64,000 nucleotides of DNA, from assembly GCF_040958095.1 (NCBI RefSeq), contig NC_091227.1, positions 18,853,210-18,917,209 on the forward strand, in the 5' to 3' direction. Origin of the DNA: Procambarus clarkii. Its lineage: Eukaryota; Arthropoda; Malacostraca; Decapoda; Cambaridae. A program made the position numbers and the translations under genes. The notes under the pieces are model-generated. The model did not search any database and was not told where the DNA came from. It worked only from the letters and a program-made list of their open reading frames with translations. Shown here in pieces: positions 2,319 through 58,600 of this stretch. The stretch's first letter is position 1, and each line of letters begins with the position of its first letter.

Positions 2319-5300
2319 ATGGGTAAGATGTCTTCCTATTTCCATCTGAATCCTTCACGACAACTGTTTTGTTTTAATAAGAATTAACGCCGTTGACTAA
2401 AAAAGCAGACGGTATGTTCACTATATATTATATCAACATTAAATACCACCACATGCAATCACAGCTGGGATATGAGGACACGGAACTAACACAGTAGAAA
2501 CAGTGGGATATGAGGACACGGAACTAACACAGTAGAAACAGTGGGATATGAGGCCACGGAACTAACACAATAGAAACAGTGGGATATGAGGACACGGAAC
2601 TAACACAGTAGAAACAGTGGGATATGAGGCCACGGAACTAACACAATAGAAACAGTGGGATATGAGGCCACGGAACTGACACAGTAGAAACAGTGGGATA
2701 TGAGGCCACGGAACTAACACAGTAGAAACAGTGGGATATGAGGACACGGAACTAACACAGTAGAAACAGTGGGATATGAGGACACGGAACTAACACAGTA
2801 GAAACAGTGGGATATGAGGACACGGAACTAACACAGTAGAAACAGTGGGATATGAGGACACGGAACTAACACAGTAGAAACAGTGGGATATGAGGACACG
2901 GAACTAACACAGTAGAAACAGTGGGATATGAGGACACGGAACTGACACAGTAGAAACAGTGGGATATGAGGACACGGAACTGACACAGTAGAAACAGTGG
3001 GATATGAGGCCACGGAACTAACACAATCGGAGACAGTGACCTCTGACCCTCAGTATCTGACACACTGTTACATATTTGTCTTGGTGTCCAGCACAATTGG
3101 TCAGCAAGAAGGGAGACGAGGAGGAGGAGGAGGAGTTCCTGCGGCAGAAGATGACGTGCTACTGGCAGGCGTACAACCCGACCCTAGAGTCCATGATGCT
3201 CTCCCAAGACGCTAAGTACCTCGCCCAGAACGAACAGAACGAGGTCCTCTCCTACCTTCCTGACTATCACGGCAAGAACGTCCTCGAACTGGGAGCAGGT
3301 ATTGGGTAAGTCGGTCTAGCCTCGTTCTCGTACTGCGAGCAGGTATTGGGTAAGTCGGCCTAGCCTCGTTCTCGAACTGGGAGCAGGTATTGGGTAAGTC
3401 GGCCTAGCCTCGTCTTCGAACTGGGAGCAGGTATTGGGTAAGTCGGTCTAGCCTCGTCCTCGTACTGGGAGCAGGTATTGGGGAAGTCGGCCTAGCCTCG
3501 TCCTCGTACTGGGAGCAGGTATTGGGGAAGTCGGTCTAGCCAGAGTAGGATTCTATATATACTGAGTAGGCCCTCACTGACAGGTCTAGGGCACGTACTA
3601 ACGGTCTCTAATCTTCCAATAAACAGTAACAACCGTTGCTACCATCAACAGGAGGTTCACGGCCAGCCTGGCAACGGTAGCAGGTCACGTGACCGCGGTG
3701 GACTTCATGGAACAATATATCGCTGAGAACCGAAAGCAGAACCAACACCTGGATAATGTTACCTTCAGGTGTGATGACGTCACTAAGTGAGTATATACAC
3801 TCATTCATGCCTGAGTAAAGAATTGTGAGATTCACATTCTCAACTAAATGTACACACACACACCTCTGAAAATAATAGAAGTACGGACGTTTCGGTCCAT
3901 CGTGGACCATTATCTCACGGATAATGGTCCAGGTAGGGACCGAAACGTGGCCACCTCCTTGGTCTTCAGATGAATAGGTTGGCTGTCTTATTTTCAGCCC
4001 CGGTATTGTGACTTTCTGTCTACATACGCGCTCTTTCTGACCTCCATACAATGAACGACTCCTCAAAATTCATCAAAAACTATTTAATCAAAAGTTAAGC
4101 AAACTGTATAGTTGCCACAACAACTGTATCTCCATAGAAATTACAATCCAGGGGTTACTACCACAGGAAGTGGTCGCCATAGTTAAAATATCTACAGTAT
4201 GGGATCTACCTACACAAAGAGGGTTAAAATATTTTGACTTTCCTATCTATTCATTTGGATAGATGAGTTTATCGATGGTTCATCGACGGCATCGCATCTT
4301 GCAGGTCTATGTTCGATTCCCGATGTTCCAAGTGGTTGGGCACAGGTCCTTTATTCTGTGCTGGGACCACACAGCTCTCAGTCCGTCCTCACATCTCAGC
4401 TCTCAGTCTGTCCTCGTATCCCAGCTCTTACATCGCTTCCAAATGGCACATTAGCAATATTGTCTTAGCGGTTTTTCCCTGATGATTATCTTAATCTTGC
4501 AACTCATGTGTAAGGCGCTCATACTCCCTCCACAGGCTGGACTTCCCTGCCGGGTCGTTCGACTTAGTCTTCAGCAACTGGCTCTTCATGTACCTGAGTG
4601 ACGTAGAGAGCTCTCGGGTGTTCAGGAAAATCCTCTCCTGGCTCACCCCTGGAGGACACTTCTTCCTCAGAGAGTCCTGCTACCACCAATCAGGTCAGAG
4701 GAGATGGATTAAGAGATAAATGCGCAGATAAACAGAGCAATATCTATATATAAATGATGATAACATGCGACTCCTTCAACAGGTAATATAAAGCGCAAGG
4801 AGAACCCCACACTCTACCGCACGCCGCTTCAGTACTTCAGTATGCTGCAGGATGTCTCCAGTGACAACATAGGCTACAAGATCATTAGAGGCAAGAATAT
4901 CCTCGCGTATGTCCAAGTGAGTGACAGATTGGTAGCACGCTCGCTACCCCAACCAGCAATTTCTGTTTAGGTTCGAGACCTGCATACGCAGAGTCAACTT
5001 GTGTATCAATCCACAATTCAAGTCAGAGTGAGAGAGTACAAGCCTGGAAAAATAATTCAAATGAATATAGGTAATGACCGAGTTCTCGTTTACAATACAA
5101 TGATCCACTAATATTTTGCCAACAGTATCACGGAAACCCCAATCAGCTGTGCTTCCTGGTCAGGCGGGTGGAGAACAAGGGCCTCGACCCCCAGACGCAG
5201 TACCTCGAATCTCACTTTGCTGTCGAAAGTATCAAATCCAGGGAGAGAATATATGGATACAACTGGTTCTCAACCGGAGGAGAATACACCACCAGGGTAC

Positions 5301-7636
5301 GTATTATAGCTGTATGAACTACGATGTAATCTATTTCCAAGGTCCTCTCATTGAGTTTGATAAATTTCCAAGTAGAGGAATTAACACGTCTCAAATTATG
5401 TTTACTGGGACTTTTTGTGTTCAATTGAGCTTTTATTCTTACAATAAGCTTTGTGGTGAGCAGGACTTGTGCGCTGGTCTTGGACTGAGGCCAGGATGGA
5501 GGGTGCTGGACGTGGGGTGTGGGACGGGCGGGTCGGCCTTCTTCATGGCTAGACACTATGGCGTCCACGTCCACGGCGTCGACCTATCCTCCAACATGAT
5601 TCATCTGGGCATTGAGAGACAAGGCAAACTCGAACCGGAGGTCAGGAAAAAGGTCAGCATCAGGCAGACTGAGGGATTAGCTCAGTAGAATTAATTTACT
5701 GTGGAAATATAATATAAATATAAACAGTGAACAGATATAATTTTATATATAAATATAAAATATATAAATATATTTTATATCTAATTTTTTTATACAGTTT
5801 TTCAATTCTTGTTATTTTCCCACACCAAGCCTAGCTAGGCTAGACCTTCCACATCTGAAACTTGCTTGAGAAATCTGACTTCTGGTTCAATTCATTACCA
5901 TGAACATATAAAGTTGAAAAGTGTGACCTAATTCAAACATTTTTTTTATGTTCAAAATTTAGTAAAATTTACATTTTGTTTATGATTACTGTTTACAGAT
6001 TCAGTTTGAGATCAGCGATATTCTCCAGGTAGAGTATGAAGCTGACTCCTATGACCTGGTATACAGCAGAGACAGTATACTCTACATCGCCGACAAGCTG
6101 GCACTCTTTAAAAAGCTTTACGTAAGTTGTTTATTTAAATAACTAGTTATAATATTCCAGAAGGCACGGGCGAGATTCGGAAAACAATTACGCGTTTCCT
6201 TACTAGATCTATACTACTTATCTCTTGTCATACAGTCCTTAGTCTTGTATTTACGATTGAGTTTACGATCTCCGGAGGGCTTCGAAGTCGTCATCAACTC
6301 ACCCCCCCCCCCCAAATGGTTATGGACGACCTCGCAAGTTCCAGAGCTCATAAACTATTTAGTAAATACGTACTAAGTCACCATGATCGAGATAAGAGAC
6401 GGAGATCTCGTAATTGATTTGTGAATGCAATATATTTTTATTTTAAAGACGCAAAAATATTTCCCACTAAAAAATAACCGAATAAGTTGAAGATATTCTT
6501 AATGGTGGTGACGGAAAAATATTCTGAAGTGTGTTGATATGGCAGCGATGGTTGAAGCCGGGAGGGACCCTCTTCATCACTGACTTCTACACGGCCAGCT
6601 CACACCCTCCCTACACCTTCCTCCACCATGTCAACAATGTCAAGTGTGAGTATACCCTATTGACACGAAGTGTATCTTTACCCCTCATGCCACTGAGCCC
6701 GAGTATATCCTCATGACACTAAATATAACCATACCTCTGACACTAAGGAGTATGCACGCCTATAATAAGTGTGAGTATACCCAAATAACACTAAGTGAAT
6801 TGAATTTCATAACAAAGGTGAGGCTATTCCCACACTATGTGAGTTTACCTTCAAGAAATCGAGTGTAACTATAACCTCATGATATTAAGTGTAAGTATTC
6901 CCAGTAATGAAGACGTCATGTACAGATTACTCCCTCTTGACGGGCAAGTCATACGGCGAGACGCTCGGAGAGGCAGGCTTCGTGGACGTGAGGTTTCAGG
7001 ACCTGGGGCACGAATTGATCAAGATTCTCGGGACAGAACTGGACGCCTTTACCGCCACGCGCGAGGCTTTCGTCAAGGACTTCTCCCAAGAGGTGTTCGA
7101 TGATATCTCTGCAAGTTGGAGAGACAAGGTAAACATCTCTTCCACTATTTCCTTTCTTCTCTCATCTCTATCCTCAATTCTGCATTATTTACTTCCCCTG
7201 AGAGGAACACCGTAGTAATTTTCCATTGGCGGAGATAGATTGATTGTTTGGCTTATCGAGATCCAAGTCAACGACTAACTTAGCGAACGACTGACTTAGC
7301 CAACGACAGTCTTAGCCAACGACAGTCTTAGCCAACGACTGACTTAGCCAACGACTGACTTAGCCAACGACAGTCTTAGCCAACGACTGTGAGAAATCGG
7401 TTTTTAACGTCTGACTTGGTTTGGTATATTGCAGTGCGCCTGTACTGCCTCAAAGCAACAGAAGAGTCATCCTAACCTTATCGTCTTAAATTTAGTTAGA
7501 CACAAGCTTTTAAGTCCATTAAACATTCGTTTCCTTCTTTCTTCAGATCCACTGGGCCCGCGAGGGTCAGCTATCGTGGGGCGCCTTCAAGGCCCGCAAG
7601 GTGGCCCCGGGCCACGACCAATCACCTACCAGCTAG
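2319..7636 (+). CDS. Phosphoethanolamine N-methyltransferase, two-domain, second domain apparently inactive
   Basis: SAM-dependent enzyme making phosphocholine from phosphoethanolamine in the cytosol. Coding exons: 2319-2322, 3092-3305, 3652-3786, 4536-4693, 4783-4916, 5126-5296, 5464-5652, 5999-6121, 6546-6645, 6926-7128, 7547-7636; 1,521 nt, 506 aa, every junction GT-AG and in phase. The start exon holds only ATG G (donor GTAAGA at 2323) and is chosen because its phase fits the acceptor at 3091; it is the least certain part. Domain 1 (about residues 20-215) has the SAM motif VLELGAGIGRF (65-75), SNWLFMYLSD and RESC, as in plant first domains. Domain 2 (about 235-500) has VLDVGCGTGG and GVDLSSNM. 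However, Phe246 and Tyr364 (in ILYI) sit where active second domains have Tyr and His. The DYCRG-like segment is also lost. The likely retained reaction is the first methylation. Confidence 0.88.
2467..3028. repeat. 38 bp minisatellite filling intron 1, about 15 copies
   Basis: Units beginning GGGATATGAGG with ACACGGAACTAACACAG recur every 38 bp from 2467 to about 3028. They differ at a few sites (ACACGG or CCACGG; ACTAAC or ACTGAC). The array occupies most of intron 1 of the methyltransferase gene and stops about 60 bp before exon 2. Minus-strand open frames through it are repeat artefacts. Confidence 0.93.
3283..3540 (+). repeat. 44 bp tandem array of an exon end plus its splice donor, 6 copies
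   Basis: The last ~20 bases of exon 2 and the first ~24 of the intron repeat six times with an exact 44 bp period: AGGTATTGGG starts at 3297, 3341, 3385, 3429, 3473 and 3517. Copies 1-4 keep the donor GTAAGT; copies 5-6 read GGAAGT and have lost the GT. Only the first donor, at 3306, fits the reading frame. Retaining the intron meets TAA at once, and each extra unit would shift frame because 44 is not a multiple of 3. Confidence 0.93.
3875..3975. repeat. Short fold-back repeat (family with GACGTTTCGGTCC)
   Basis: Inverted arms around ACGTTTCGGTCC and GGACCGAAACGT with ATAATGGTCCA near the centre. Related copies lie at 13155-13390, 29540-29700, 39700-39810 and 58313-58480. This one is in the intron after coding exon 3 of the methyltransferase gene. 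Probably a non-autonomous mobile repeat. Confidence 0.7.
4264..4460 (+). repeat. tRNA-derived SINE fragment
   Basis: Contains a box-B-like GGTCTATGTTCGATTCCC followed by CCAAGTGGTTGGGCACAGGTCC, the same tail seen at 46400-46590. It sits in the intron before coding exon 4 of the methyltransferase gene. There is no complete cloverleaf, so it is not called as a tRNA. Confidence 0.55.
6642..6910 (+). repeat. Decayed tandem array built on a splice donor
   Basis: The intron after coding exon 9 opens AAGT/GTGAGTATACCC at 6642-6657. Exactly the same 16 bases recur at 6767-6782, and a near copy with GTAAGTATTCCC is at 6887-6902. In between are degenerate pieces of about 25-30 bp ending in forms of ATGACACT. 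The intron seems to have grown by tandem copying of its own 5' splice site and then drifted. Confidence 0.6.
7265..7388. repeat. 16 bp minisatellite
   Basis: Units alternating CGACTGACTTAGCCAA and CGACAGTCTTAGCCAA repeat about seven times in the last intron of the methyltransferase gene. No coding meaning. Confidence 0.9.
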
Positions 7637-7930
7637 TTTAGCAGCGAACACCCGACGCCTCCTCAACGTTGCTTTCATCATTGTTTGAGGCATGGATAAG
7701 CCTAATACGCCTCCTGTCCCCGACAACGGATTCATACACCAAGAATATACTTTTCGGTGTATGTATGTATGTATGTATGTATGTATGTATGTATGTATGT
7801 ATGTATGTATGTATGTATGTATGTATGTATGCATGCATGTATATATGTATGCATGTGAGTTACGTAAATGAGTCAAGCCTCATATATTAATTTGTTACCT
7901 TTCACATGAAATAAAATCGAATTATTAATA
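7637..7930 (+). promoter_or_regulatory. 3' untranslated region with (GTAT)n and polyadenylation signal
   Basis: Follows the TAG stop at 7634-7636. It contains a GTAT tetranucleotide tract at about 7757-7830 and an AATAAA at 7910-7915, a plausible poly(A) signal. The assignment as transcript end rests only on position. Confidence 0.5.
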
Positions 7931-8555
7931 AATTCTTTGTTGATTATCTCCCCCTCGTAAACATTTTCTATATATGACAAATGAAATGCTATACAAACTC
8001 CATCAAAACTGGTCAAAACACTTCCCATTTCAAATTTAGCTCCGTGATGTGAACACACACAATGCTGTTAGCTCCTGGGCGAAGCTATTAAGTGTTCCCT
8101 GAGCAAGCACCAGGATACAACACAAAACTCTAACATAATGTATTCCTACTACGGATAAATAAGGAATTTAATAACAAAGAGTGTGTGTTTGGGTCAGTCA
8201 ATCTCCCCATCTCTGGCTCAGTCTATCAACCTCTTCGTCAAATATTTTCATCGCATTTCCTTGATCATATCAACAAAAGACTGCAGTTGCCTGCAGTGAA
8301 TCTTGAACACAAATGTACACTTGTGTTCAAATGTACGTCGTGAACACTTAGTAGATAGGGGACACTAAGAATCAAAGACAGTCCAGCTAACCCGGCTCTA
8401 CTAAATGGTTCTTGCGATGGACTGCCTCTACAATACTTCTAGAGGAACTACAATGCTCTAATTCAATAAGAAGCGTCATTTTATGTTATACTGTAGCTTA
8501 TGTATAAAAACCTTTAACTTTTATGACTGCCACAGGAACATTTATACGCTTAGCC
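7931..8555. other. Intergenic, no feature recognised
   Basis: AT-rich spacer between gene 1 and the 20 bp minisatellite. Only short frames are present and none has exon-like signals. Confidence 0.5.
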
Positions 8556-8926
8556 ACCTGTAGAGGTGGTTCTCCACCTGTGGAGGTGGTTCTCCACCTG
8601 TGGAGGTGGTTCTCCACCTGCGGAGGTGGTTCTCCACCTGTGGAGGTGGTTCTCCACCTGCGGAGGTGGTTCTCCACCTGTGGAGGTGGTTCTCCACCTG
8701 TGGAGGTGGTTCTCCACCTGTGGAGGTGGTTCTCCACCTGCGGAGGTGGTTCTCCACCTGTGGAGGTGGTTCTCCACCTGCGGAGGTGGTTCTACACCTG
8801 TGGAGGTGGTTCTCCACCTGTGGAGGTGGTTCTCCACCTGTGGAGGTGGTTCTCCACCTGTGGAGGCGGTTCTCCACCTGTGGAGGTGGTTCTCCACCTG
8901 TGGAGGCGGTTCTCCACCTGTGGAGA
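8556..8926. repeat. 20 bp minisatellite, about 18 copies, self-complementary unit
   Basis: Very regular array of ACCTGTGGAGGTGGTTCTCC with single-base variants (TGTGG/TGCGG, GGTGG/GGCGG, TCTAC). Within each unit CCACCT pairs with AGGTGG, so each can form a small hairpin, and each holds a CACCTG E-box core. A 20 bp stop-free unit leaves several frames open on both strands; those frames are not genes. Confidence 0.95.
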
Positions 8927-9547
8927 GTCATTATTATGAGGCTACGCTACTTGCCATAAGGCTAGGCTGAGAAACCTGTCTGGCGAAGCCGGCTGCATGA
9001 ACTCTGTCTAAACAACCTTGAGACTTGCTAAGCCGTTTTATAATTAAGACCCTCGCATTTTAACCAGAAATATCTTGTATAAAGATCAGAGGTACACAGT
9101 CCGTTCCGAAAGTTAATCTAAATTAAAATAATTTCCTTCTCACCTGAACCTGTCTTGTAAGGAGACTTTAGCACGCCCTGATGTAATACCTTGATGGATG
9201 TCACCATTAACGTGAGTCATTATACGATAGTGCTATCGTTATCGACACCAGACATCTTCCTGTCTGGTCAAGCACAGATGCCTAACATCATCATGCATAA
9301 CTTCTGCAAGTCATGTGTACACTGACTCAAGCATGGAGTCTGCAACAAAAGTTTTAAACTAAAAAACTAACTAACCTGTACACAGGCACGACACAGCTGA
9401 TCTGACAACAAAACAGTCAAGCGAGCATCCAAACGAAACAGTCAAGTGAGCATCCATCCGGGTATTACAATAATATAATAACACTTTTACTACAAAGGGT
9501 GAAACTCCTTTTCTGTGCGTAGTCTGGTTCAGGCAAGTACAAGCTTT
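8927..9547. other. Intergenic, no feature recognised
   Basis: No gene, RNA or clear repeat seen. Confidence 0.45.
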
Positions 9548-9675
9548 TATCATTCGAATTGAAGTAAGTTTATTGAGGTATATATACACACAAAGGGATG
9601 AGGTAGCTCAAGCTATTTTCACCCCGTTCAGTACAACGTGCTTATATATATATATATACATATACATATACATAC
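9548..9675 (-). repeat. LINE-tail-like repeat with TA/CATA microsatellite
   Basis: AAGTTTATTGAGGTATAT followed by AAAGGGATGAGGTAGCTCAAGCTATTTTCACCCC. It resembles, in reverse, the tail of the element ending near 44520 and the copy at 53765-53870. It looks like the 3' end of a dispersed retroelement. A TATA/CATA microsatellite follows at about 9642-9672. Confidence 0.55.
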
Positions 9676-9935
9676 CACAAACAATAATCATATACCGATC
9701 ATTCTCAGTGATACACACATACATTTCTTCCTTTACACATACAGTATGGTACCAGTGCTTTATCACTAAGTGTTCCCTCACCCAGTTATATATCTCTCAC
9801 ACTTGAAGATATCATCTCGACCCTTGATCTCTCATGCTATAGTTTCTCCCGTGTTTCTTCCACTCAACTATAGAGGTCCGCGTAATCACAGAACTAGGCT
9901 TTATCGACATGCTCATCCATCCAGTTGCTGGGCCG

Positions 9936-10892
9936 ATATAAAGGTGCTTACCTTGGCTGATCACCATAGACAATGCCCGTGACGGCGGAAGCCATCTCTT
10001 ATCCACAACTTAAAACCAGATTCAACAAAGAATTGGAGCGTCAGAATAATTGTAAGGCAACAGGTACAACAAGGCCAGTAGGCTGGGTATGCAGAGCTGG
10101 ATCTCACATTTTCCGTAGTCACTGATACTTAAGTACTCCCCTCCACCATCGCCCACTGGATGGGGTAGTAAACTAGTTCACCACAAATGTGAATTACTTA
10201 GATTCAAGAACACTGAGATTTTTTACCAACTCGAGTGTTTCTTAAACTTCAAGTTTATCTTCTACATTTTGTTTAGCAGAAAACGTCAATTAAATACTAC
10301 ATATATACTATACACTGTCCACCAGCTGATTCTGCCAGCACATGTCATGCGTGACAGCGGTTGAAGGTCAAGTACCCAGAGTGGAACCACCTTCAGCAGA
10401 CAGCTGGCGCTTACAGCATATAAAGGTGCTTACCTTGGCTGATCACCATAGACAATGCCCGTGACGGCGGAAGCCATCTCTTATCCACAACTTAAAACCA
10501 GATTCAACAAAGAATTGGAGCGTCAGAATAATTGTAAGGCAACAGGTACAACAAGGCCAGTAGGCTGGGTATGCAGAGCTGGATCTCACATTTTCCGTAG
10601 TCACTGATACTTAAGTACTCCCCTCCACCATCGCCCACTGGATGGGGTAGTAAACTAGTTCACCACAAATGTGAATTACTTAGATTCAAGAACACTGAGA
10701 TTTTTTACCAACTCGAGTGTTTCTTAAACTTCAAGTTTATCTTCTACATTTTGTTTAGCAGAAAACGTCAATTAAATACTACATATATACTATACACTGT
10801 CCACCAGCTGATTCTGCCAGCACATGTCATGCGTGACAGCGGTTGAAGGTCAAGTACCCAGAGTGGAACCACCTTCAGCAGACAGCTGGCGC
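9936..10892. repeat. 475 bp direct tandem duplication, copies apparently identical
   Basis: Copy 1 at 9936-10410 and copy 2 at 10418-10892, offset 482 bp, from ATATAAAGGTGCTTACC to GACAGCTGGCGC. I see no difference between them by eye. A diverged relative (GAGCTGGACCTCAC followed by CACTGATAGTCAAGTACT) is at about 11660-11760. Either a very recent duplication or an assembly artefact. No gene is recognised inside. Confidence 0.9.
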
Positions 10893-11007
10893 CAAGACAT
10901 GGCACTTGAACAGGTGATGGTGTCACCGTCTGGCCCTAAGAGACTAAGATCCATATTTTTGTCTTTCGTTTTCTTAAAAATGCTTCCTCAGTCAACACTA
11001 GCTATTG

Positions 11008-11165
11008 GTAGTGGTGGAAGGAGCATTTGTTATCATGGTAGTACCAGAAACAATAGTGGTGGCAGGAGCATTTGTTATCATGATAGTACCATAAGCTATA
11101 GTGGTGGAAGGAGCATTTGTTATCATGGTAATACCATAAACAATAGTGGTGGAAGTAAGAATTGT
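11008..11165 (+). repeat. 45 bp tandem repeat kept open as a 15-codon unit
   Basis: AGTGGTGGAAGGAGCATTTG recurs at 45 bp (units from about 11011, 11056, 11101, 11146). One frame, 10824-11201, stays open across it with a repeated GGRSICYHG peptide motif. No homology is recognised and the frame begins inside the duplicated 475 bp unit, so I do not call a gene. Confidence 0.75.
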
Positions 11166-12205
11166 TTGTGGTCATTGCAGTACCAGAAACAGGTTACGTG
11201 ATGTGGACAGACTGAAGGTCAGCAGATCCTAATCATCAGCAGATATCGTTTCAAATGGAGCAGTGGAATTGCGTAGTTCGCAGATCTTCAACTACACATC
11301 CAAACTGTATTTTTTCACTAATCTGATCAATGCTCGATCGTGTCTGGGAATGATAACGATCACATAATTAGCTATGTTGACTTATTTGTGTCTATATTTG
11401 TTTATTTACAGAAAATACAATTGATTTTGTGTAACAATTTTGCTGTGCAAATGGTAGTCACTAGGATGCACAGCGTGTTAGGCTAGTCTTAAAGCTAAAA
11501 AAATAGTTGTAGAATTTGTGAATTTGTAGTGATTTATGAGTTAACAGAAGTGCAGTAAATTTAAAATATGTATAATATCATTACTTATGCATTAAGCAAG
11601 CTGTGAAAGCCACCTCCATTCATAATTAGTTTCGAAAAAAAATGTATTCCAGACTAGTTAAATTATAACGCAATGGGAGCAACGAGGGTCGTAGGCGGGG
11701 CATAAGAGCTGGACCTCACTCCTCGGTCGACACTGATAGTCAAGTACTGATAGGAAAGTATGAATCAGACCCTATGGTTATAAACGTAATGAAGTCGACC
11801 AACTGTGCGGTAGTAGCTACTGTACTTCGCTGCCAGGCGCACGAGGCTCCGGCAGCATTTGTCATACCGCAGCCTGTAAGTCAAGAGACAAAAGTTTGGT
11901 CTTGTGCTAAGATATACATCGTCTGGACAAGCAGCTGCTGCTGATATTATTTCGAAAACACCAAAAATTTCTGGTATGTTAGACTATTTAAGTAACGTTA
12001 ATAACTGTTACTGCAAAGTCTTTCTTTCTATATTATATGGTTCATTAATACTGCGACAGATAAATTGATCATGTCTGAGTATGTCTGTTTCCAAAACATA
12101 AGAATTATTACTCCTTGCATTGCTGCTATTCTTAGTTTTGTCATTTGTACGTTATCAAAAAGGTGTGATACAAACTAGAGAATTTAGAATTTAAAAAACA
12201 GTTAG
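11166..12205. other. Spacer upstream of the second methyltransferase gene
   Basis: Holds a diverged copy of part of the 475 bp duplication (about 11660-11760) and a possible donor CAGCCT/GTAAGT near 11876. A first exon or promoter of gene 2 may lie here, but I cannot identify the equivalent of the first methyltransferase domain. Confidence 0.4.
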
Positions 12206-12238
12206 TTGTGTGGAGTTGACTTGACCACCAATTACATC

Positions 12239-12290
12239 ATGGATAGTCTTCCTGTCCATGACGGGATGAACCCATTCCTAAGGAAGAAAT
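12239..12290 (+). CDS. Candidate first coding exon of methyltransferase gene 2
   Basis: ATG at 12239 opens a frame (MDSLPVHDGMNPFLRKK) ending at a GT donor (12291). A pyrimidine-rich acceptor follows at 12339. The phase (one base) fits the exon starting at 12340. The intron would be only 49 nt, very short. The frame is also open upstream to 12206. If real, gene 2 encodes 319 aa with a short N-terminal extension lacking any SAM motif. Confidence 0.3.
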
Positions 12291-12339
12291 GTAATCAATT
12301 ACCTGTCTCTTTTTGTTTCTGCCTCGTACCAACGTTCAG

Positions 12340-14666
12340 ATTCTCCCGTGGGAGTCTGGTACGCCCTCCAGAGTGCACCAAGGATCAACATATCGGTTAT
12401 CACAGGTCAGCGTAGGGTCAGCAAGTGCTGGTCAACTCACTCCGTCATGGACCAGAAGAGTGTAGGCCCCACCCAAGAGTTCCTGGACAGCAACCAGTAT
12501 TCCCGCCAGCAAATACTACGCTACGAGAGAATCTTCGGCTACACCTGGGTATCTACGGGCGGCGAATCTACCACCAAGGTGCGTGAGTATACCACCAAGG
12601 TGCGTGAGTATACCACCAAGGTGCGTGAGTATACCACCAAGGTGCGTGTGTAATATTATCATCACATTTATTCTCCCCTGATATGTAATACCCTAAGTAT
12701 TACATATGGATATCAATCCATTAATGTAACATCACTTGTATGTATGTACCTTACCTGAATAAACATATTTATTTATTTATTTTATTTATTTTAAGTGTAG
12801 GTGTCTTTAACGATCAAAGTGCTTCCTTCTTGGCTTCCCTGGTACCTTAATAATAGAATCTAAATCAGTCTCTCATTGACATGCACAATAACAATATTTT
12901 AAATCATATTCACTTGATCCTCCTCCCCTTCTTCTCTCTGTCTTGATTAGGACTTTGTGATGAAGCTTGGGTTACGTCCGGGTCAGCGGGTGCTGGACGT
13001 GGGCTGCGGGTCGGGCGGGTCGGCCTTCTTCATGGCCAGACACTATGGCGTCCGCGTCCACGGCGTCGACCTCTCCTCCAACATGATCAACTTGGCACAG
13101 GAACGCTGGGCTCGGGAGGACGCCAAACTGCGCGAGATGGTAAGGGGCGTTGACCAAACCACACACTAGAAAGTGAAGGGACGACGACGTTTCGGTCCGT
13201 CCTGGACCATTCTCAAGTTGATTGCCAAGTCAATTACTTTCTAGTGTTAAAATAGTTTTCGGTCCGTCCTGCATCATTCTCAAGTCGATTGCAACTCAAT
13301 TACTTTCTAGTGTGTTAATATAGTTTTCGGTCCGTCCTGGACCATTCTCAAGTCGATTGCCAACTCAATTACTTTCGAGTGTGTTAATATAGTTAAGTCA
13401 ATATTCCACAGTTAATACTGAAGTGAAGCATAAATAGTAAGAACCTGGTGAGGCATTAATTCAGTCCATTAACCAAGTTAGTCAGACACTAACAACAGCA
13501 TCAGTGATATTCTGCTTTTGTATCCAGGTGAATTAATCCCGAACGAGGCTACATATACAGGTGAAAACTAGTGTTTAAGCCAAAGTAACGTGACTATGAA
13601 TCTTGTTGACACAGGTGAAGTTCGAGGTAGCAGACATCACTAAGGTGCAGTTCGACAACGCCAGTTACGACGTCATCTATTCTCGGGACACTATCCTCCA
13701 CATTCCTGACAAGGAGAGACTCTTCAAAACCCTTCATGTAAGTCTTTGGGGCAGACTTACCCACTGGGAAGCAGGCTAATTGTTGGCAGGACTGCCTCCA
13801 AGGCTTGAGATAATGTTAACATCAGTAGTAAAATTATCAGTGAATTGTAAATATTCTAAATATGCTAAGAATTGCAAGACAACCTTAATAGTAAAGATTC
13901 CAGAGATAACTAACCGCTGTCCAACTGGAATTTGTATACTTTTCCCTCGGGATGCTACTAAGTACAGAAGAATTGGGGATCCATGCCCATGCCTTCTAAA
14001 TTCTCAACCACACTACCGTGTAAATCATTATTTCATTATTTCATTAACCTGGGCACTAGGAGACTCGAACTAGAGTGGATAGAGCATTGGCCTCACGCTC
14101 GTGGGGTCGACGGTTCATACACTAGAAGCATACCCACCTGTCTCTCCCATCTCCTTCGCCTCTTTCCCATCTAGTCTGCAATCACGAACAGACATTTACA
14201 TTTATAAATATACAAGAAATCTAGGGACTTGGCCAGCCACATGTCACTATTTTTTTTCGGGGGTGGGGGGTGTTGTCATTACTATGCCCCCTCTAATAGG
14301 ACCGACCGAGAGTAGCATATGCCCGTAGCGCTCCAGACTATTTAACCTGTAAAATTGGGTGAAGCTAGCCCCAAGTACTTAATTACATGTGTGTGTATAA
14401 GTCGTCAAATTCCCTCCACAGACATACCTACACTATGGAACCCCCATTCAAGCCCTGTTACACTACAGTGAAAGTTAAAAAATAAAAAAAATTAATTAAT
14501 TAATCAATCCTATAGGCATGGCTTAAACCCGGAGGAACCCTCTTCATTACCGACTACTGCCGGGGTGACCGCCAGCACTCACAGGAGTTTCTTGACTACG
14601 TCAAACAAAGAGATACATCAACTTGACTAACACTGATGATATCACATACAAAGAAGAATGAATATC

Positions 14667-14720
<54 letters not shown>

Positions 14721-15366
14721 GTGGGCAAGCATAACAAATGGGGAAGCTAATACACATAATAAACATTAAGATATTCTGCAACACCACATCCACATTGCTG
14801 TACAATAACGGAAGTTCCTATTGTGTAGGTTATGACCTCCGGACAGTGCGAGAGTACGGCCAGGTGCTGCGAGAGGCTGGCTTCATCCATGTACAGGCTG
14901 AAGACCTCACCCAGACCTTCATCTCCATCCTTACTACTGAGCTCAAGTATTTTGAGCCTACTAGGGAGGCCTTTATCCAGGTTAGTTGAACAGCTTAACT
15001 TACATCTAAATCATACCATAACTACATATACCAATATATTGCCCCAAACACCACCAAGGAACACTGACCAGCATACCCAAAAGCATTATATGTCACACTT
15101 TCCAAACACATACTGAATAGATTTACTAAATATTATGTGGAAACAGTATACCAACCGAATATTCTAAAAAAAATAGTAATAAACCAAAAGCTGTTATAGT
15201 TTTCCTTCTGTTAAATATGTCCCACTCTGCTGTGTAATAACACCGATGTATCTTGTAGGACTTTAACGAAGACGACTACAACGACATTGTCAGTGGCTGG
15301 AAGAGAAAGCTGGTTCGTTGCAATGCCGGAGACCAAGCCTGGGGCATGTTCCTGGCCAAGAAGTAA
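12340..15366 (+). CDS. Phosphoethanolamine N-methyltransferase paralogue, second-domain-only (PMT-2-like)
   Basis: Exons 12340-12578, 12951-13139, 13615-13737, 14516-14612, 14829-14980, 15259-15366 (TAA). From the ATG at 12447 the product is 266 aa, about the size of the single-domain Plasmodium enzyme; the exon's good acceptor at 12339 suggests extra N-terminal residues. Numbering from that ATG: SNQYS with Tyr18, [30 protein letters not shown] with His136, WLKPGG, DYCRG, then [11 protein letters not shown], ending in a CNAGDQAWG segment typical of the family. Tyr18 and His136 match the catalytic pair, so it should methylate phosphomono- and phosphodimethylethanolamine. Oddities: the donor at 12578/12579 is followed by three in-frame copies of itself, and the intron after 14612 begins ATACAT instead of GT. 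Its last intron position differs from gene 1. Enzyme identity is strong; whether the gene is fully functional is open. Confidence 0.8.
12569..12652 (+). repeat. 21 bp in-frame tandem array of a splice donor, 4 copies
   Basis: ACCACCAAGGTGCGTGAGT recurs at exactly 21 bp (ACCACCAAGG starts at 12570, 12591, 12612, 12633). Each copy has the exon end AAG and the donor GTGCGTGAG. Unlike the 44 bp array in gene 1, 21 bp is seven codons and the frame stays open, so use of donors 2-4 would insert one to three copies of VREYTTK. Confidence 0.92.
12700..12795 (+). repeat. Retroelement 3' tail
   Basis: GTACCTTACCTGAATAAACA followed by (TTTA)n, the kind of 3' end left by a non-LTR retroelement. It lies in intron 1 of gene 2. 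Confidence 0.55.
13155..13390. repeat. Fold-back repeat relic with about 65 bp tandem copies
   Basis: Begins like the element at 58313 (CACACACTAGAAAGTGAAGG, then GACGACGACGTTTCGGTCCG). It continues as three imperfect tandem copies of a segment with TTTCGGTCCGTCCTG and CAATTACTTTC. It lies in the intron after the SAM-motif exon of gene 2. Confidence 0.75.
14050..14130 (+). repeat. tRNA-like SINE fragment
   Basis: GTGGATAGAGCATTGGCCTC resembles a box A and GGGGTCGACGGTTCATAC a degraded box B. It is intronic in gene 2. The relaxed box B and missing stems argue against a working tRNA. Confidence 0.45.
14651..14717. repeat. (TA)n microsatellite
   Basis: Uninterrupted TA run inside the intron of gene 2 that begins with the non-GT donor. 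Confidence 0.95.
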
Positions 15367-55650: not shown

Positions 55651-58600
55651 TCACAAGTCAGTTTCCATGAGAGTCCTACTTCGCGGGGACACCTTGTACA
55701 GCTCGCAGTCCCCACCAGTCTCCAGGGTCTTCATCCTCAACGTCTCGTTCCCTAATCTCCTCATTTGTTTTTCCTTCAATTTCTCTGCCTGCAAATTGAG
55801 TATAGCTATAATTTCATTCATCCATTGTTTCTTCATATCTTTGTTGCTTGTTCGGAAATGATACGTGAGGGTTTTGGTGGCCGCTGTGCGCACCTCCAGC
55901 TGGAAAGAATAGTCGTCCGAAGTGGGTCCAAGACCCACAGTGTCCATGCGGATGGCTTCTACGTAGTTATAGAAGGGGGGATGGGGCTCCAGTAAAAGAA
56001 TCATGGTGTTCAGGAGGACTATATGGAACTCTTGTTTAATCATGTGACCTGTCCATCGCACTCTCGCCTTCCCTTCCAACTGGACGGGACCACACTCGTG
56101 CAGATCGAAGGGCTCTCCTTCTATGACCTCCGTCACGAGAATGGTGTTGGCGTTGCCTATGCAGTCTCGCAAAACGGACAACGCCGCATTTACTAAAGGG
56201 TTTTCTGGTTCACCTGCGATGTGGAGTCTCGAAAGATACTTCATGTACAGCTCAAAATGAAGCACTGGACTCACATAACGACTATGTAAGTCCATAGTCT
56301 TCATCAGTCCTTCAAAGCGGGCGCGATCTGCTAAGTAGTTAGAGTACAACTCTTTTAGCTTTTCGGAACAATCAATGAAACACTGAGCGATTTCTTCAGT
56401 TGTCTTGGAACTTACAGCCTTTTTTAATAGAGGATGAAAGATACTGGAGTGGAATTCATAGATGTGACGCAAGTGTGAGACCAAACACGCCGGTGGCTTC
56501 AGTAACTTGTCATCCAAGAAAGAAGCAAGTTGCTCAAGTATGCTCGAGACATATTTGTTTTCCTCGTCCAATAAAGCAGTTAACACAACATGCTGGTTGT
56601 CCTTCGTCCCATTTGCGCGAATCTTACTTTTGTAAAGGTCTTCTAATTGTGGGAAGACCGTCCATACAGCCAATGGAGGCAAGTAGTTGCCGCCCTTGAT
56701 GTAGTTACTCTCACTGTCGGACGCGTACCCGCTCTGCTGCCTTACCACTGGCCGAGTCTTGCCTGATAAACTAGAGTTCTTCTTTATAGCTGCACGACGA
56801 TTATTCCAAGATACGTTGGTCTCGCTCCTTCCGTCTCGCACGCTAACGTCATCCAGGATATCAGAGTCGCTGTGAGACGCCTTCTCTAAAGACTGTCCTC
56901 GTCGCATCTTGCTACGCTTGCCGGGTTGTCTAGAGTCTGATTCACCTTCGATATAGCTGTTCCTCTGAGTAGTAGACTGAGGTTTTTCATTAAGAATACA
57001 TTTCAAATCATTAATCCATTGCTGTTGCATGTTAATATTTTTTGCTTTGAATGTGTAGTGGATTACTTGTCCTCTTGGACCGTTTCTGACATCGAGATTG
57101 AATAAGACTCCCCGCTCTTGCTTCCCCAACCCGACTTGGTCCATTCGGAAACTTGTAAAATAGCGGTAGTACCTTCCTTCGGGTATGGTGAGCAATATGA
57201 GAGTCTTCAAGACGAGGACATGGTACACCCGACGAGGCAGGTCTCCCCCTTGACGCAGTGTGAGGTCACTGTGGCGAATCAAATTACCAAAGTTGGTCAA
57301 GTCAAAAGGTGATCCAGTAACGGCGCCAAGAAATAGCTTCGAATCAGCTTTCTTCAGAGGAACTTTGAGGACATCTATAGCTTTCTGGAGCGCCGCCTTT
57401 TCTTCAGAGGAGGAACACTTTTTGTGAAGAGTCTCGAGAGTGAGGACGTAGTAGTGAAGACGCATTCTGGGTTTCCTTAGCTTCTCTGGCAGCTCGGGCA
57501 TGTGAGTTATAAAGTAGTCCCTGTGGAGGAGGAGAATGCGATCCACGGTCGGAATGTTTTCCATAAAGTAGACATAATTCTCATATTCGTTTTGATGGCG
57601 CACAATGGCATCACTCAGACACTGCAGGTTACTGTTGCTCTTCTCAAACTCAGCGTGCAGCTCCGTGTGCAGCTGCGTCAGAGCCTTCACTTGCACGAAC
57701 AGAAGAATCAAGTTTTCGCGAATAAACTGTGGTGTTTCCGCGTCTGCCAAACGTTCCCTGTCGTCTTCAAGGCTCCGAATGGCCTTGACAAATTCCTCAT
57801 CCGTTTCTAGAAAGTACTTGAGTTCCGCTTCTATGATGGCGGCGTTAGACTCGAGGGAGGAGTCACTGGATCTGGATATGGTGTCGGCCGCTCCGTCATC
57901 GTACAGTCGCTCCTGTACGTTAGCGTCGAAGCCCATGTCCTCGTAATACGCCTGTGCGGACTTGCTGTCCGTATCGTCGCTAACCTGGTCGTCTTCGTCT
58001 TCAGAGTCCGTGCTGGGTTCTAAAGAGTCATTAAGAATCGGAGTAGAGACGAGTCTATCGTTTGAACAAACGGTGGTAGTTTCTGTGGTAGTGATGGCGG
58101 CGATGGCAGTGGTGGTAGTAGTGGTGGTTGTGGTGGTGGTGGTGGTGGTAGCGGTGCCGGGGGTTCCAGCTAGCGACGCCAACATGGCCGTGAACTTCTT
58201 GCCCATGCCACGACTCCACGACGCCTTGGGTTCCTTGGTGCATACTGTCTGAAGCTCGTTACTGCAAATATAATGCGCTGGATTACATTAACGTTATACA
58301 CGCTATATATTGACCAGACCACACACTAGAAGGTGAAGGGACGACGACGTTTCGGTCCGTTCTGGACCATTCTCAAGTCGAGAATGGTCCAGGACGGACC
58401 GAAACGTCATCGTCCCTTCACTTTCTAGTGTGTGGTCTGGTTAACATACTTCAGCCACGTTATTGTGACTCATCGCCCACGTTAAATATTTGCTAAGAAG
58501 TAATGAGTTTTAAATGTACAAGTACAACATCAGAATTATATATATCTATCAGTCCCATGTACACTGTGTTCGAAAACTACAACATAGTACGGAAGAAGGA

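Follow-up and report, generated by a model that had tools for sequence, protein, structure and literature searches.

Two adjoining phosphoethanolamine methyltransferase (PMT) genes in the crayfish Procambarus clarkii probably reflect complementary domain loss after duplication of a two-domain PMT, as in nematode PMT-1/PMT-2, with both products jointly making phosphocholine; we put the probability of this reading at roughly 55%. The genes lie in a window of 64,000 nt (GCF_040958095.1, NC_091227.1, 18,853,210-18,917,209 of the forward strand); all positions below refer to this window and all features are on its + strand. As the initial annotation had claimed, the second methyltransferase domain (MT2) of gene 1 is degraded and gene 2 is without a detectable first domain (MT1). 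The elements of the split that were directly observed comprise the anatomy of both genes, the residue losses, an asymmetric evolutionary rate, shared introns and the finding of no other copies. The view that the DNA stems from an arthropod-like genome was also supported, the genome being of an animal, crayfish type.

Gene 1 (2319..7636) encodes a two-domain PMT of 506 aa in one joined, uninterrupted frame of 11 exons (2319-2322, 3092-3305, 3652-3786, 4536-4693, 4783-4916, 5126-5296, 5464-5652, 5999-6121, 6546-6645, 6926-7128 and 7547-7636), and all ten introns are GT-AG. Its best PDB match was 5wp5 (E 5e-119), which, like 5wp4, we take to be a plant PMT; the alignment covers residues 22-495 of 506 and both methyltransferase domains. 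Gene 2 also matched 5wp5 (E 2.8e-97), and the single-domain Plasmodium enzyme 3uj6 was matched by gene 1 at E 1.4e-43 and by gene 2 at E 1.7e-56. Judged by sequence comparison, the similarity of both genes to 3uj6 is not due to chance, and their full-domain homology to solved PMTs places both in the family.

The MT1 of gene 1 is encoded at 3092..4916 (residues ~22-215), with its last strand in the next exon, and looks catalytically intact from its residues. Of the 58 columns that never vary among four solved MT1s (the 4krg row being partial) it matches 52, and the HcPMT1 pocket residues W14/M26/M27/W123 are all kept, as W26/M36/M37/W133. Activity of this domain is nevertheless uncertain, because Leu stands where all four solved MT1s have the His of the NPTHYR motif. 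Identity was 37-41% to nematode MT1 compared with 48% to plant MT1.

In the MT2-coding exons of gene 1 (5126..7636), the SAM site is retained and the phosphobase site is degraded. Re-reading of the codons upheld the proposed loss of the Tyr/His pair: F246 (codon 5216-5218) takes the place of Plasmodium Tyr19 and gene 2 Tyr18 in the alignment, and Y364 (6083-6085) that of Plasmodium His132 and gene 2 His136, positions held by Tyr and His, respectively, in active enzymes. PDB 3ujd also has Phe at position 19, matching gene 1 F246. Altogether, six of nine checked phosphobase-site positions were changed (Y19F, Y27R, H132Y, Y160F, Y175H and R179K, the calls of Y175H and R179K resting on a one-residue alignment gap), and D128, Y181 and K247 were retained. 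The DYCRG and KQRGYD-type segments are likewise missing, as had been noted, with DFYTA in place of gene 2 DYCRG and NVKYYS in place of gene 2 KQRGYD. For the enzymes of P. vivax and P. knowlesi, the available portion of one report proposes Y16/H129 as the catalytic dyad and assigns phosphate binding to Y24, Y157, Y178 and R176 (PMC4357015), a numbering that would equal P. falciparum positions minus three. Gene 1 MT2 retains 58 of the 86 columns that do not vary among two plant and two Plasmodium MT2s, and we infer that it is probably inactive.

Gene 2 (12340..15366) is an MT2-only PMT in six blocks (12340-12578, 12951-13139, 13615-13737, 14516-14612, 14829-14980 and 15259-15366), with a possible start ATG at 12447 (MDQKS), from which its residues are counted; what remains of MT1 is apparently the last strand only. 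All nine checked active-site residues are kept, including the predicted Tyr/His pair at Tyr18 (codon 12498-12500) and His136 (13699-13701). It retains 71 of the 86 invariant MT2 columns, none of the 15 departures falling among the nine checked residues. Read from MDQKS, gene 2 encodes a protein of Plasmodium-like size with all nine residues present, and it might carry out all three methylations alone, as the Plasmodium enzyme does, with gene 1 in a supporting role that accelerates the first step. Precedents exist, since the accessible part of one study describes MT2-only enzymes with a broader range: the P. falciparum enzyme performs all three steps and the 268-aa PMT2 orthologue of Toxocara canis (TcPMT) methylates phosphoethanolamine, whereas HcPMT2 has no activity on this substrate (PMC10269165). 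We nonetheless consider a three-step gene 2 improbable: its MT2 shares 56-57% identity with plant MT2, against 38-39% with the Plasmodium enzymes, and plant MT2 is known for the later methylation steps only; in addition, the conserved MT1 of gene 1 suggests that MT1 is needed.

The donor of gene 2 intron 4 bears on whether the split works. At 14613..14618 it reads GAG/ATACAT, with AT instead of GT, and scores -4.96; the 14 other donors of both genes, all GT, score between 6.3 and 9.4. The equivalents of Tyr175 and Arg179 sit just before it, and the G of KQRGYD needs the splice at this site, so that the segment exists only with a non-canonical splice; the earlier statement that gene 2 keeps both motifs thus stands for DYCRG, and for KQRGYD it depends on a non-GT donor. 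Translation into the unspliced intron ends, after VKQRDTST, at a stop codon at 14624, and use of a weak in-phase cryptic donor in exon 4 (14564..14567, GGG/GTGACC, score 3.8) would remove 16 codons, among them those of the Tyr175 and Arg179 equivalents. Because of the AT donor, gene 2 as assembled may yield no complete MT2: the gene may be failing, or the assembly may be wrong at this site. If intron 4 is not correctly spliced, gene 2 would be dying or dead, the phosphocholine route incomplete or recently lost, and no working split would exist, a reading also in line with the missing first exon (see below). We regard it as rather unlikely, given that the frame and the remaining splice sites of gene 2 are intact, that it has 71 retained columns, a complete set of active-site residues and a short branch, and that the same picture would arise from an allele, a rare AT donor or a base error in the assembly. 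Under the split reading, gene 2 would be expressed and active despite the AT donor, with labour divided between the two genes.

An upstream first exon and promoter of gene 2 were not found in a screen of 7637-12320, which gave 22 candidates running from an ATG to a phase-1 donor (exons of at most 300 nt, donor score >5). The most attractive of these, 9973-10051, has a second copy at 10455-10533 through an exact tandem duplication of 475 bp; it was rejected because from ~9987 it lies within a dispersed repeat, for which the best 40 scored of 1123 first-look candidates gave 41 matches. The missing exon is one of the points compatible with a single gene having two alternative 3' halves, in which the MT1 exons of gene 1 would be spliced to either the degraded or the intact MT2 and a bifunctional enzyme would persist. 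Exon 5 of gene 1 ends in phase 0 and an in-phase CAG acceptor occurs within the gene 2 exon at 12411; moreover, gene 1 exon 1 ends in phase 1, which is compatible with the gene 2 acceptor at 12340. However, the acceptor at 12411, whose pyrimidine tract scores a modest 0.5, is internal to a longer exon; the acceptor of that exon, at 12340, scores better (0.7) and is itself incompatible in phase with gene 1 exon 5. The six gene 1 exons 6-11, together with the gene 1 stop, would have to be skipped. The low score at 12411 is weak evidence, as 6 of 16 accepted acceptors also score <=0.5, but on the whole we find this arrangement very unlikely.

Searches for an MT1 belonging to gene 2, or for further PMT copies, were in line with the proposal that gene 2 has no first methyltransferase domain. 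By tblastn (E <=10), no convincing MT1 match was obtained outside the two genes, either in the interval 7637-12340 or in the remaining window sequence (four stretches; best match E 0.15, from an MT2 query), and none in the 10 kb preceding the window (best E 0.39). No other PMT or MT1 was detected in the 4.03-Gb assembly with gene 1, gene 2 MT2 and plant MT1 as queries: among the best candidates scored, all 13 matches of the gene 1 query and all nine of the gene 2 query fell at this locus, and the plant MT1 query gave three matches, two in gene 1 and one, 30% identical, on C88. The C88 match was rejected as a second MT1, being a 275-aa open frame of a different methyltransferase, presumably a protein N-terminal methyltransferase. 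The sensitivity was such that an old PMT copy could be missed: of the six gene 2 blocks the gene 1 query recovered three, and with plant MT1 as query two of the gene 1 MT1 exons were recovered. The initial annotation had placed the split beside a bifunctional ancestor, a part of the claim that was not supported, as no bifunctional copy was found.

In a six-sequence MT2 tree, which contains no nematode MT2 rows, the MT2s of gene 1 and gene 2 pair with a support of 95 (86 when a tract of high identity is left out); a search for bacterial relatives as an outgroup gave one weak locus among the 100 pattern matches listed, and it was left out of the tree. Four of five intron positions are common to both MT2s in the same phase. 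Branch lengths were 0.88/1.17 for gene 1 MT2 compared with 0.15/0.16 for gene 2 MT2, and relative-rate counts were 54 versus 8 (chi-square 34), so that, the high-identity tract excepted, gene 1 MT2 has evolved six- to sevenfold faster. The case for complementary domain loss is strengthened by the six changed residues, this 54:8 imbalance and the finding of no other PMT. The excepted tract spans ~100 nt encoding SAM-binding motifs (5500..5601 in gene 1, residues 285-318; 12987..13088 in gene 2) and is 94% identical between the genes, which is best read as putative gene conversion. The pairing of the two MT2s, in a tree without nematode MT2, favours a split independent of that in nematodes. A more elaborate version, in which an independent crustacean split was accompanied by gene conversion that keeps the SAM exon, and the dead MT2 acts as a SAM/SAH-binding pseudoenzyme tail regulating or stabilising MT1, appears distinctly unlikely as a whole.

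Under the preferred reading of complementary loss, the ancestral two-domain PMT would have methylated phosphoethanolamine once through MT1 and twice more through MT2, and would have been duplicated into a tandem pair within the crustacean lineage. Gene 1 would then have retained MT1, its MT2 losing the phosphobase-binding and catalytic residues and remaining as a folded, SAM-site-bearing tail; gene 2 would have lost its MT1 exons and retained a complete MT2; and the two proteins together would convert phosphoethanolamine to phosphocholine. A working split would be a non-nematode case of a bifunctional lipid-precursor enzyme divided by complementary loss, i.e. subfunctionalisation at the level of domains, and would suggest that this crustacean can make phosphocholine from phosphoethanolamine. 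Conversion confined to a cofactor-binding exon, next to a catalytic site that changes fast, would offer a model for the origin of pseudoenzyme domains. If gene 2 is dead, the locus catches the phosphocholine route during its loss.

PMT has already been annotated in decapods, in mitten crab (PMC9171014) and white shrimp (PMC10706788, PMC4686024), and the available portions of these reports name the enzyme without discussing domain loss or tandem copies. In the nematodes C. elegans and Haemonchus contortus, one protein has a working MT1 and the other a working MT2, according to the accessible part of PMC10269165. Gene 1 MT1 resembles nematode PMT-1 in its four HcPMT1 pocket residues. Unlike the nematode pair, the crayfish genes adjoin, gene 2 apparently has the last MT1 strand, and gene 1 MT2 retains the SAM motifs, which nematode PMT-1 is not known to keep. 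The plant two-domain PMTs (5wp4, 5wp5) are matched by the alignment of gene 1 over residues 22-495 and the 56-57% identity of gene 2 MT2, but in the plant enzyme a single chain combines MT1 with the catalytic pair of MT2, and gene 1 is without this pair. With the single-domain Plasmodium PMTs (3uj6, 4iv0), gene 2 shares the nine checked residues and a possible start at the same point; it differs from them in being only 38-39% identical and in seeming to derive from a two-domain gene.

Joining the 11 exons of gene 1 (2319-7636, plus strand) across 10 GT-AG introns yielded a stop-free frame of 506 residues, in which a Pfam profile search detected two methyltransferase stretches and whose best PDB matches were the two-domain phosphoethanolamine methyltransferases (PMTs) 5wp5 (E 5e-119) and 5wp4, which we take to be plant enzymes. 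The six blocks of gene 2 (12340-15366, plus strand), once joined, encode one second methyltransferase domain (MT2; 5wp5 match, E 2.8e-97). The initial observation is correct and not due to chance. The first block of gene 2 still holds CWSTHSV, resembling in a by-eye fit the last strand of the plant first domain (MT1), CWIWQKV, and gene 2 therefore seems to descend from a two-domain gene. Were MT1 spliced onto gene 2, the product would be a normal bifunctional enzyme; a first exon of gene 2 was looked for, and none was established.

The assembly (4.03 Gb, 2308 contigs, with the window on the plus strand of contig C78, 18853210-18917209) was searched exon by exon, only the best candidates being scored. 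All genome matches to gene 1 (13/13) and gene 2 (9/9) fell at this locus, as did two of three to a plant MT1, the third being a different methyltransferase. The bifunctional ancestor placed alongside the pair by the initial annotation was not found with these three queries across the assembly.

Active-site positions of MT2 were carried over by alignment from 3uj6, which we take to be the P. falciparum enzyme and whose chain numbering gives Tyr 19 and His 132; Tyr175, D128 and K247 presumably also have active-site roles there. Six of nine checked positions are substituted in gene 1 (F246 at Y19, R254 at Y27, Y364 at H132, F390 at Y160, H404 at Y175 and K409 at R179, the H404 and K409 assignments depending on a one-residue gap in the alignment), and the equivalents of D128, Y181 and K247 are retained. 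The proposed loss of the catalytic Tyr/His pair in gene 1 is thus borne out. PDB entry 3ujd carries Phe at position 19, and its measured activity is reportedly reduced. For the enzymes of P. vivax and P. knowlesi, a passage of PMC4357015 describes a putative catalytic dyad Y16/H129 and phosphate ligands Y24, Y157, Y178 and R176, numbers that by our reckoning equal the P. falciparum positions minus three. Gene 2 retains all nine residues, and Tyr18 and His136 are correctly numbered provided that translation starts at MDQKS (12447). Five further positions, acids and glycines of the SAM site (61, 63, 83, 85 and 110), are retained in both genes.

MT1 of gene 1 retains 52 of the 58 columns invariant among four solved MT1s, the 4krg row covering the domain partly. 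Its W26, M36, M37 and W133 are equivalent to Trp14, Met26, Met27 and Trp123, described in part of PMC10269165 as constraining the HcPMT1 pocket (chain 4krg, with a six-residue offset inferred from the match). Replacement of the invariant His of NPTHYR by Leu (residue 181) and of an invariant Tyr by His (residue 159) speaks against a fully normal MT1. Gene 1 most likely makes phosphomonomethylethanolamine, which gene 2 most likely converts to phosphocholine. If it works as the P. falciparum enzyme does, gene 2 could instead perform all three steps; passages of PMC10269165 describe that capacity for P. falciparum and suggest it for T. canis.

Fourteen donors across both genes are GT (scores 6.3 to 9.4); that of gene 2 intron 4, GAG/ATACAT, scores -4.96. 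KQRGYD, said to be retained in gene 2, is coded across this junction, and its presence is therefore conditional on the AT donor. Read-through would give VKQRDTST followed by a stop at 14624, while use of a weak in-phase donor at 14564 would delete 16 codons. If gene 2 were unspliced, the phosphocholine route would end after the first methylation. No second copy of the AT-donor exon for comparison was found in the search of the 4.03-Gb assembly.

Several repeats accompany the genes. At 3279-3541, the 3' end of exon 2 of gene 1, together with its splice donor, recurs in a six-copy, 44-bp minisatellite, with GTAAGT in four copies and GGAAGT in two, giving tandem alternative donors. In gene 2, a 21-bp, seven-codon minisatellite (12569-12652, four copies) repeats an exon end and donor, so that donor choice may create seven-residue in-frame repeats. 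Further minisatellites comprise 38-bp units in gene 1 intron 1 (2461-3025, about 15 copies) and 20-bp units between the genes (8554-8925, about 19 copies); an exact 475-bp tandem duplication (9936-10892, offset 482) includes a dispersed repeat of about 150 bp present on many contigs. An open 878-aa frame (55651-58287, minus strand) encodes RhoGEF and SOS1/NGEF-type PH domains, in two stretches each. Crustacean neurohormone genes (PF01147) gave nine genome matches, five of them clustered outside the window on C37 (10181571-10237901, L039-L043) as crustacean hyperglycemic hormone-type exons spaced about 13.1-14.6 kb apart, four with equal scores. The decoded PF01147-type peptide agrees with cambarid crayfish hyperglycemic hormone, which makes this a decapod genome, probably that of a cambarid crayfish.

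Nucleotide comparison revealed a high-identity tract (gene 1 residues 285-318, 5500-5601; gene 2, 12987-13088; plus strand), within which a 100-nt segment is 94% identical between the genes, against 53% for the other 668 aligned nucleotides; its score was reached by 0 of 2000 codon-column shuffles. Identical residues (without Met and Trp) share codons at 24/30 sites inside and 39/96 outside (Fisher p 0.0003, an optimistic value since the tract was picked by its identity). Gene conversion is the simplest reading.

The two MT2s are 52% identical; gene 1 is 38-39% identical to plant MT2, and gene 2 56-57% to plant and 38-39% to Plasmodium. Of the 86 columns that do not vary among four MT2s (two from plants, two from Plasmodium), 58 are retained in gene 1 and 71 in gene 2, and a relative-rate count with plant 5wp5 as outgroup assigned 54 changed sites to gene 1 alone and 8 to gene 2 alone. 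A six-sequence tree (LG+G4, 1000 ultrafast bootstraps) paired the genes with support of 95 (86 without the conversion tract), with branch lengths of 0.88 for gene 1 (1.17 without the tract) against 0.15 (0.16). From STGG onward, four of five introns match in position and phase, the fourth of these being the intron whose gene 2 copy has the AT donor, and the fifth differs. The pairing, common introns and divergence together indicate that, in this small sample, the copies are sisters, though not very recent ones, and that constraint was altered during evolution of the gene 1 MT2.

The main line of the initial annotation holds, while the integrity of gene 2, given its AT donor, and the surviving ancestor were overstated. 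Within the titles and abstract openings of the open-licence literature, a split or tandem crustacean PMT did not appear as a topic; passages of PMC9171014, PMC10706788 and PMC4686024 show PMT already annotated in decapods. The importance of the locus is moderate until transcripts settle gene 2, and it is a variant of an already known arrangement.
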